Below are positions 45,689 through 51,967 of a stretch of 64,000 nucleotides of DNA, piece by piece. The position numbers and the translations under genes are program-made. The notes below the pieces were generated by a model. The model searched no databases. It had not been told where the DNA came from and saw nothing but the letters and a program-made list of their open reading frames with translations. The stretch comes from Aggregatilineales bacterium (GTDB lineage: Bacteria > Chloroflexota > Anaerolineae > Aggregatilineales > Phototrophicaceae): positions 62,001-126,000 of the forward strand of contig JAUQWZ010000057.1 in NCBI GenBank assembly GCA_030834905.1, in the 5' to 3' direction. The first letter of the stretch is position 1. Each line of letters begins with the position of its first letter.

Positions 45689-45713
45689 GTCTTCAGCTTA
45701 AGTGCATATTGCA

Positions 45714-45816
45714 CTCATCAAGAGCGGTGGAGGGATACGGCCCTTTGAAACCGCGGCAACCCCCGGAGCGCTGGGACGGTGCCAACTCCGTCAGAGTTCA
45801 ACCTCTGGCAGATGAG
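45714..45816 (+). ncRNA. SAM-I (S-box) riboswitch
   Basis: The core consensus is present: AAGAGCGGTGGAGGGATACGG, CCCTTTGAAACCGCGGCAACC and GGTGCCAACTCC. P1 arms CTCATC (45714-45719) and GATGAG (45811-45816) close the aptamer. It binds S-adenosylmethionine. Followed 18 bases later by a strong terminator, it should switch transcription of metK off when SAM is high. Confidence 0.95.
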
Positions 45817-45833
45817 CGTTCAGGTCATTTGTG

Positions 45834-50215: not shown

Positions 50216-50315
50216 AGGGCTGATCCGCTTTCGGCAGGGTGAGAACATAACGGGCGCAACTATAGCGGCAGTGGGGCAGTATTGTCGAGGGGGCGAAAAT
50301 TCGCCGTTTGCCTGC

Positions 50316-50344
50316 TTGACATGAAATGACAATCGGGCTACCAT
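50316..50344 (+). promoter_or_regulatory. lysC promoter
   Basis: TTGACA (50316-50321) and TACCAT (50339-50344) are separated by exactly 17 bases. Transcription would start near 50351, giving a leader of about 200 nt. Confidence 0.72.
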
Positions 50345-50377
50345 GAATGCTGGTTACGAACTAAAGAGATTCGATCC

Positions 50378-50449
50378 ATGTTTTGTCACTTCATGACTAC
50401 CGGTATGGGTACCACTACTCCACATAGATACACTGTGCGGGGGCACTAG
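50378..50449 (+). CDS. Thr-rich leader peptide of the aspartate kinase gene
   Basis: A 23-codon open frame, ATG at 50378 and TAG at 50447, the first ATG in the predicted transcript. It reads MFCHFMTTGMGTTTPHRYTV plus three residues. Six of 23 codons are Thr, with MTTGMGTTT in the middle. AAAGAG lies about 10 bases upstream, a weak ribosome site. Aspartate kinase feeds threonine, lysine and methionine synthesis, so Thr codons are the expected sensor. A stalled ribosome here would leave GCGCTT (50449-50454) free for the antiterminator. This is a reading from sequence, not shown. Confidence 0.6.
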   Translation: MFCHFMTTGMGTTTPHRYTVRGH

Positions 50450-50516
50450 CGCTTACCTGAGAGCCGGAAAGTAGTAAAGGAAACTCAAGCGTGTGGAAAC
50501 CCCCACACGCTTTTTT
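50449..50516 (+). promoter_or_regulatory. Attenuator: antiterminator and terminator before lysC
   Basis: Terminator: AAGCGTGTGG (50487-50496) with CCACACGCTT (50503-50512), then a T-run to 50516. Competing antiterminator: GCGCTT (50449-50454) with AAGCGT (50487-50492), and GAG (50459-50461) with CTC (50484-50486). A ribosome at the leader stop codon covers the first arm, one stalled at the Thr codons does not. The alternative pairing is modest (about 9 bp with a bulge). Confidence 0.6.
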
Positions 50517-50551
50517 GTTGTCTTGTGCCGAATCACAGGGAGTCTGAAGTC

Positions 50552-51967
50552 ATGCAAACGCTGACGATGAAATTTGGGGGAACGTCTGTAGGCAGCCCGG
50601 AAGCGATTTCTAACGTGGCGGCGATAGTGGGTGACGCGCTGGTGCCGGATAACCGCGTGATCGTGGTCGTCTCCGCCATGTCCGGCGTCACCGACGCGCT
50701 GCTTACTTCAGTGCGCGAGGCAGCCAGCGGCAACAAATGGTCGTACCTCTCCTGCGCCCAGAAGCTCCGCGACCGTCACGAGGAAGCCGTCAATCTGCTG
50801 ACATCGCCGGGCAAAGACCGCGACACGGTCATTAATGAGATCGGTGTTCTGATGAAGCAGCATACCGAATTGTGTCAGGCGGTCAATATTCTGGGCGAAG
50901 CGACGCCGCGCATTCTCGACGCGGTTGTCTCGTTTGGCGAGCGTTTGAGCTGCCGGGTGGTGGCTGCCGCGCTCCGCAGCCACGGAGTCAATGCGGTCGC
51001 CTGCGACGCTACCCAGTTCATCGTTACCGACGACCGTTATGGCAACGCCAGTGTCCAGTGGGCAGACACCGAGCAGCGTATCCGTGAAAAGCTGCTGCCG
51101 GTATTGGACAGCGGCATTGTGCCGGTGATTACCGGCTTCATTGGCGCGACGCGCGACGGACATGCGACGGCGTTAGGGCGCGGCGGCAGCGATTACAGCG
51201 GCGCTATTTTCGCGGCGTGCAGCGACAGCGACGAGCTGATCATCTGGACCGACGTGGACGGCGTCATGACCACCGATCCCCGCATTGACCGCCGCGCGCG
51301 CGTGCTGCCCTACGTCTCGTATCAGGAAGTCGGCGAACTGGCGTTTTACGGCGCGAAAGTGCTGCACCCGAAGACGGTGCAGCCGATCCTCAACCGGAAG
51401 ATTCCGTTGAGGGTGCGCAATACTTTCAATCCTCAGCATCAGGGCACGCTCATCGGTCCCAATGGGCAGCGCAGCGAAACCGTCATTAAGGCGGTCACGA
51501 GCGTGCGCAACGTGTCGCTGCTGACCGTCAGCGGCAAGGGCATGATCGGCGTGCCGGGCATCGCCGGGCGAACGTTTCTGGCGACGGCAAAAATGGGTGG
51601 CAACATTCTGATGATATCTCAGGCGTCGTCGGAGCAGAACTTCTGCTTTGTGGTGCTGGATGACCGCGCCGGCGAAGCGAAAGCGGCGATTGAAGCCGAA
51701 CTTGCCGCCGAGATCGCCCGTCAGGATGTGGACGGCGTCGAGGTGCTGGGTGACGTTGCCATCGTGACGACGGTTGGCGCGGGAATGCAGGGCACGCCCG
51801 GCGTTGCGGGGCGCATCTTCACGGTGATGGGCGACAACAACGTGAACGTGGTGGCAATCGCGCAGGGCGCGTCGGAATGCAGCATCTCGTTCGTGGTGGA
51901 CGAGGATAACCTGCAAAAGGCGGTGATCGCGCTGCACGATCTGGCGCTGAAAGCGGTGGCGGTTTAG
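50552..51967 (+). CDS. lysC: Aspartate kinase
   Basis: 471 residues from ATG at 50552, 12 bases after GGGAG. The kinase domain opens MKFGGTSVGS and has SFGERLSCRV for aspartate and GRGGSDYSGAI for ATP. Two C-terminal ACT domains follow (VRNVSLLTVSGKGMIGVPGI and VAIVTTVGAGMQGTPGVAGR) and usually bind lysine, threonine or both. It phosphorylates aspartate, the entry to the Asp-family amino acids. Transcription appears to be attenuated by a Thr-rich leader. Confidence 0.94.
   Translation: MQTLTMKFGGTSVGSPEAISNVAAIVGDALVPDNRVIVVVSAMSGVTDALLTSVREAASGNKWSYLSCAQKLRDRHEEAVNLLTSPGKDRDTVINEIGVLMKQHTELCQAVNILGEATPRILDAVVSFGERLSCRVVAAALRSHGVNAVACDATQFIVTDDRYGNASVQWADTEQRIREKLLPVLDSGIVPVITGFIGATRDGHATALGRGGSDYSGAIFAACSDSDELIIWTDVDGVMTTDPRIDRRARVLPYVSYQEVGELAFYGAKVLHPKTVQPILNRKIPLRVRNTFNPQHQGTLIGPNGQRSETVIKAVTSVRNVSLLTVSGKGMIGVPGIAGRTFLATAKMGGNILMISQASSEQNFCFVVLDDRAGEAKAAIEAELAAEIARQDVDGVEVLGDVAIVTTVGAGMQGTPGVAGRIFTVMGDNNVNVVAIAQGASECSISFVVDEDNLQKAVIALHDLALKAVAV

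Follow-up and report, generated by a model that had tools for sequence, protein, structure and literature searches.

Aspartate kinase carries out the shared first step in the synthesis of threonine, methionine and lysine, and the thrABC attenuator of Escherichia coli senses threonine and isoleucine together. Other ribosome-mediated attenuators include those of ilvB in Corynebacterium (PMC10272879), the cysS uORFC-8-2 (PMC8632094) and the His leaders in Firmicutes (PMC9413887). The authors of a 2010 survey knew of demonstrated leader-peptide systems in no groups other than Proteobacteria and Actinobacteria until they added an example from Firmicutes (PMC2965389).

A comparable organization is seen upstream of an aspartate kinase gene in the 64,000-nucleotide stretch of Chloroflexota DNA analysed here (the window). 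The sequence contains a leader ORF rich in codons for pathway products, a terminator before the gene, and an antiterminator arm that would be masked by a ribosome at the leader stop, and we conclude that this is very probably a ribosome-mediated transcription attenuator that reads the charging of Thr-tRNA and Met-tRNA together. All of the components are on the plus strand. A sigma-70-type promoter (TTGACA-17-TACCAT, 10 of 12 matches) lies at 50316 to 50344, in a region where 0.5 promoter-like sites are expected, and it is conserved too, with a promoter-like match (at least 8 of 12) in 71 of 77 leaders compared to 15 of 77 shuffled sequences. The 23-codon leader ORF (MFCHFMTTGMGTTTPHRYTVRGH) spans 50378 to 50449, ending in a TAG codon at 50447 to 50449, and includes six threonine and three methionine codons; its ATG at 50378 is about 27 nt past the transcription start site, taken to be 7 nt downstream of the -10 box. 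Which codon starts the leader is uncertain, in that a plain Shine-Dalgarno core precedes an in-frame start in only 27 of 77 leaders and the starts vary; the frame with the Thr/Met run is kept in the relatives. The putative regulatory codons (ATG ACT ACC GGT ATG GGT ACC ACT ACT) are at 50393 to 50419, a role suggested by codon enrichment in 66 leaders.

Two alternative helices are predicted downstream of these codons. Arm A of the antiterminator (TGTGCGGGGG, 50434 to 50443), recognized by covariation and spacing, lies within the last leader codons and ends 3 nt before the stop. An intrinsic terminator hairpin (AAGCGTGTGG-AAACCC-CCACACGCTT, 50487 to 50512, with a T tract to 50516) has a covarying stem and sits between the leader ORF and the kinase gene, and arm B of the antiterminator (CCCCCACACG, 50500 to 50509), supported by covariation and folding, is formed from the 3' part of the terminator loop and the 3' arm. 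The gene proposed to be regulated (50552 to 51967) encodes a 471-residue aspartate kinase with AA_kinase and ACT domains. It is probably transcribed alone, because the next ORF is on the minus strand.

The earlier note had termed this gene 'lysC-type', which is a loose label. The product scores 505.7 bits with the aspartate kinase model NF004938, 467.4 bits with the ThrA-type model NF006959 (threonine-sensitive, bifunctional) and 347.2 bits with the lysine-sensitive aspartokinase III model, and it passes the cut-off of none of them. Among the nearest named records with this kinase gene, most are assemblies of Anaerolineae and Chloroflexi (CFX9 and OLB15, for example), and these place the window in an Anaerolineae genome. 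We note that a record titled Pleurocapsa minor, a cyanobacterium (L101; JAHHHY010000012.1), carries the kinase at 77% identity, and that a contig matching it in position (L008, L031) bears a Thr/Met leader; this metagenome-assembled genome is probably misnamed.

Comparison of the DNA upstream of orthologous kinases, sampled from the family, order and class, shows that the leader has real counterparts. The promoter, 23-codon ORF and terminator are as the earlier note had described them, and a leader with a terminator is present in 66 of 69 non-redundant upstream regions of family orthologues, a count that overstates the number of independent events as the leaders are related by descent. The same arrangement is found in 7 of 13 upstream regions from a second family of the order, and a Thr/Met-containing leader followed by a terminator occurs in three further families within the class, of which two are represented by one sampled member each (L154; L159) and the third by three (L148, L152 and L235). 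A search of the phylum with model R1 was informative in two cases, L235, with its Thr/Met leader, and L230, which has an aromatic leader; beyond the class, its matches were mostly terminators that scored by chance. The linker between leader stop and terminator varies in sequence among the relatives. Members of one genus, including L077, L078 and L084, have a further hairpin (TTTGTTG...CAACAAA) over the leader stop just before the terminator, and this may help the antiterminator to fold.

The comparison of orthologous leaders that had been proposed in the earlier note finds threonine codons conserved, together with methionine codons. When each of the 66 family leaders is represented by its densest stretch of 12 codons, Thr accounts for 41% of residues, Met for 26% and Ile for 3%. 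Choosing the densest window favours Thr and Met by construction, and the control is therefore the same search made on every third leader with all 190 amino-acid pairs; Thr+Met ranks first among these, with a mean of 8.3 of 12 codons compared to 6.2 for the runner-up. The best 12-codon Thr+Met count has a median of 8 in the 66 leaders, against 2 to 5 in 59 regions upstream of the aspartate kinases of other families and 2 to 7 after Markov resampling. At this locus alone, the chance of an equally Thr+Met-rich 12-codon window is 0.0045 (first-order Markov resamples of the upstream region); by itself such richness is weak evidence, and on sequence grounds it is conservation that settles the matter. 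Examples of the runs are TTTTMMTM (L016), TTMTMTTTTM (L071) and TTTTTTMLMTTM (L089). All four threonine codons are in use (156 ACT, 109 ACC, 40 ACG and 22 ACA), which indicates that selection acts on the amino acid.

These counts bear directly on what is sensed. An attenuator responding to threonine only, with the methionine codons either incidental or alternative starts, is unlikely, even though Thr is the commonest residue of the runs and every leader needs at least one start codon, such that the Met codons might partly be alternative starts. Methionine far exceeds isoleucine in the runs, the best window has at least two Thr and at least two Met codons in the same frame in 61 of 66 leaders, and no other amino-acid pair scores as highly as Thr+Met. 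Moreover, the orthologous aspartate kinase lies behind SAM-I riboswitches in L134, L195 and L211, which belong to a sister family within the order, and in L141 and L171, which represent two more families of the class, and this ties the gene to methionine independently. The designation 'threonine attenuator' thus stands as regards the threonine codons and is incomplete, since methionine codons are as regular a component of the leaders as threonine codons are.

The earlier note had placed the antiterminator arm to be covered by the ribosome at 50449 to 50454, at the leader stop, with the terminator 5' arm as its partner in the classic manner, and we consider this arrangement improbable, somewhat more so than sensing of threonine only. 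Its pairing of CGCTT with AAGCG (50449 to 50454 with 50487 to 50491) is formally possible and is available in 79.7% of cells, but the covariation score is 0.249 compared to 0.251 in shuffles, with only one pair changed on both sides, and the helix was dropped as a candidate. The helix that covaries is that between arms A and B. In the alignment of 65 sequences its score is 0.160; shuffled controls give 0.121 +/- 0.009, none of the 500 reaching it, and sliding the register gives no more than 0.084. The terminator stem is paired in 98.9% of cells, and six of its ten pairs have changed on both sides. Column-based pairing of A with B is only 69%, because the registers of the arms shift between clades. 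In an alignment-free comparison, the two arms of one leader pair better with each other than with arms exchanged from other species, and 0 of 20,000 permutations of the whole set match them; when swaps are restricted to within genera, 5 of 20,000 permutations do so, and this within-genus signal is modest and is the fairest figure given the shared descent of the leaders. Striking A:B pairs include GGGAGATTT with AAATCTCCC (L014) and CGTGGAGGTCT with AGACCTCCACG (L089). On visual inspection, L148 and L152 have an arm A that resembles the terminator 3' arm and would pair instead with the 5' arm, which corresponds to the classical layout. The proposal of mutually exclusive stems is thus borne out in that the terminator and an alternative antiterminator helix both covary, although the arm that had been named was the wrong one.

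The positions of the A and B arms suggest how the proposed two-amino-acid attenuator could operate. Arm A begins a median of 16 nt (interquartile range 15 to 18) after the final Thr or Met codon and ends a median of 11 nt (interquartile range 10 to 14) before the stop codon, such that arm A would be left free by a ribosome on the run and covered by one that has reached the stop. Predictions from partition-function folding of the nascent RNA, with assumed ribosome footprints, are consistent with this. For a ribosome positioned on the final Thr codon of the run (50417) and RNA emerged to 50508, the prediction for the window locus is 0.79 for A:B and 0.00 for the terminator, whereas only the terminator is predicted with the ribosome at the leader stop; two of the other stall positions tried are Gly codons inside the Met/Thr run. 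Over the 77 leaders, the stalled state is predicted to favour A:B over the emerging terminator in 72, and the terminator is predicted in all 77 with the ribosome at the stop. Dinucleotide shuffling of the RNA between ribosome and terminator raises mean terminator nucleation from 0.05 to 0.40. Once the whole hairpin has emerged, all cases computed for the window, those with a stalled ribosome included, give the terminator as more stable than the antiterminator, and since the terminator wins at equilibrium the decision must be a kinetic one.

A plausible scenario is that when both charged tRNAs are plentiful the ribosome would reach the leader stop and cover arm A (50434 to 50443), allowing the terminator at 50487 to 50512 to form and transcription to end before the kinase gene. 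When charging of either Thr-tRNA or Met-tRNA is low, the ribosome would halt within the Met/Thr codons, some 16 nt short of arm A, and the free arm would pair with the emerging terminator loop and 3' arm before the hairpin closes, so that RNA polymerase reads on. Leader translation, stalling and read-through are each things we infer from sequence. Attenuation by ribosome position, as the earlier note had supposed, is nonetheless well supported at that level by the conserved leader, the covarying terminator and antiterminator, and the ribosome-scale spacing. The more specific reading, a sensor of Thr-tRNA and elongator Met-tRNA that puts the shared first enzyme under the OR-gate control of two branch products, with an antiterminator that nucleates on the terminator loop and captures the 3' arm, is the one we favour, with less assurance than the general assignment. 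If it is correct, the initial reaction shared by threonine and methionine synthesis would be coupled to the supply of both, and the dual codon set would be a simple way for two products to regulate a branch-point enzyme.

A metabolite-binding riboswitch or T-box with an accidental ORF is highly improbable, as although SAM-I and T-box elements do precede this gene in other families, no Rfam family is over threshold in 50300 to 50560 (the top score is 21.5 bits where 59 are required; no match to the SAM, lysine or T-box families, nor to RF00506 Thr_leader at E values up to 10), and what is conserved is the codons, two alternative helices and ribosome-scale spacing, with a linker of variable sequence and no conserved aptamer-like core.

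The attenuator precedes an aspartate kinase gene alone and not a thrABC operon, hom and thrC being on other contigs. No leader of the Thr/Met type was seen before hom or the three thrC-like genes of the same genome, and the region upstream of its second aspartate kinase gene (contig C58) has no visible Thr/Met leader. A SAM-I riboswitch is present elsewhere in the window, at 45712 to 45818, upstream of the S-adenosylmethionine synthetase gene and 4.5 kb before the attenuator.

Among the other leaders, we note one with Tyr and Phe codons (FRTIFVTSFAQPNRYAYYYYFSGDIVEGRALPTAK, ending at a stop codon) and a terminator in the same genome (L174, 632 to 746; C58, 128531 to 128645), ahead of an operon encoding chorismate mutase, DAHP synthase and prephenate dehydrogenase. 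L175, L178, L179 and L180 have comparable leaders, as does L230, from another class of the phylum. A Phe-rich leader (MKHFTFSFTRFTTLLGRRK, likewise closed by a stop) with a terminator is found at L181, 560 to 720, before the apparent start of a prephenate dehydratase gene, with aspartate-semialdehyde dehydrogenase further down. The parallel between the Tyr/Phe leader of the aromatic operon and the Thr/Met leader in one genome suggests that the lineage makes general use of the strategy.

The suggestion in the earlier note that the system may be new and lies in a distant group agrees with the absence of an Rfam match at the locus and with its host in the Chloroflexota. To our knowledge there is no earlier Met-codon attenuator, and this, if true, would be the first, as well as being among the first ribosome-mediated attenuators described in the Chloroflexota. 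Leader-peptide attenuation would be extended to that phylum, for which the literature searched has no report, and methionine would join the amino acids that such leaders may sense. The open-access literature searched contained no Met-codon attenuator and no amino-acid leader peptide from the Chloroflexota; an earlier prediction is possible in the 2010 comparative analysis by Lopatovskaya and colleagues, which is represented here by its citation in PMC4833913.

The thrABC attenuator of E. coli and other gammaproteobacteria (RF00506) resembles the locus in its Thr-codon leader peptide, intrinsic terminator, control of aspartate kinase and sensing of two amino acids. It differs in that the codons here are for Thr and Met with hardly any Ile, a single aspartate kinase gene follows, there is no Rfam match, the host belongs to the Chloroflexota, and the antiterminator pairs with the loop and 3' arm of the terminator. 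The trp, his, leu and ilv attenuators also have codons for pathway products followed by mutually exclusive helices; methionine as a regulatory codon, and the combination of threonine with methionine, set this locus apart from the ribosome-mediated attenuators in the open-access literature searched. The SAM-I riboswitch (RF00162) of related families acts on the same gene and the same logical signal, methionine/SAM supply, but senses SAM directly, without a leader peptide, and is absent from this locus. T-box-like leaders (RF00230) before aspartate kinase in two further families (L139, 304 to 554; L164, 313 to 553), scoring 84 to 86 bits and just under the Rfam gathering score, also sense tRNA charging, but by direct binding of the tRNA. 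One gene thus alternates among related families between a putative dual-codon attenuator, a SAM riboswitch and a T-box.
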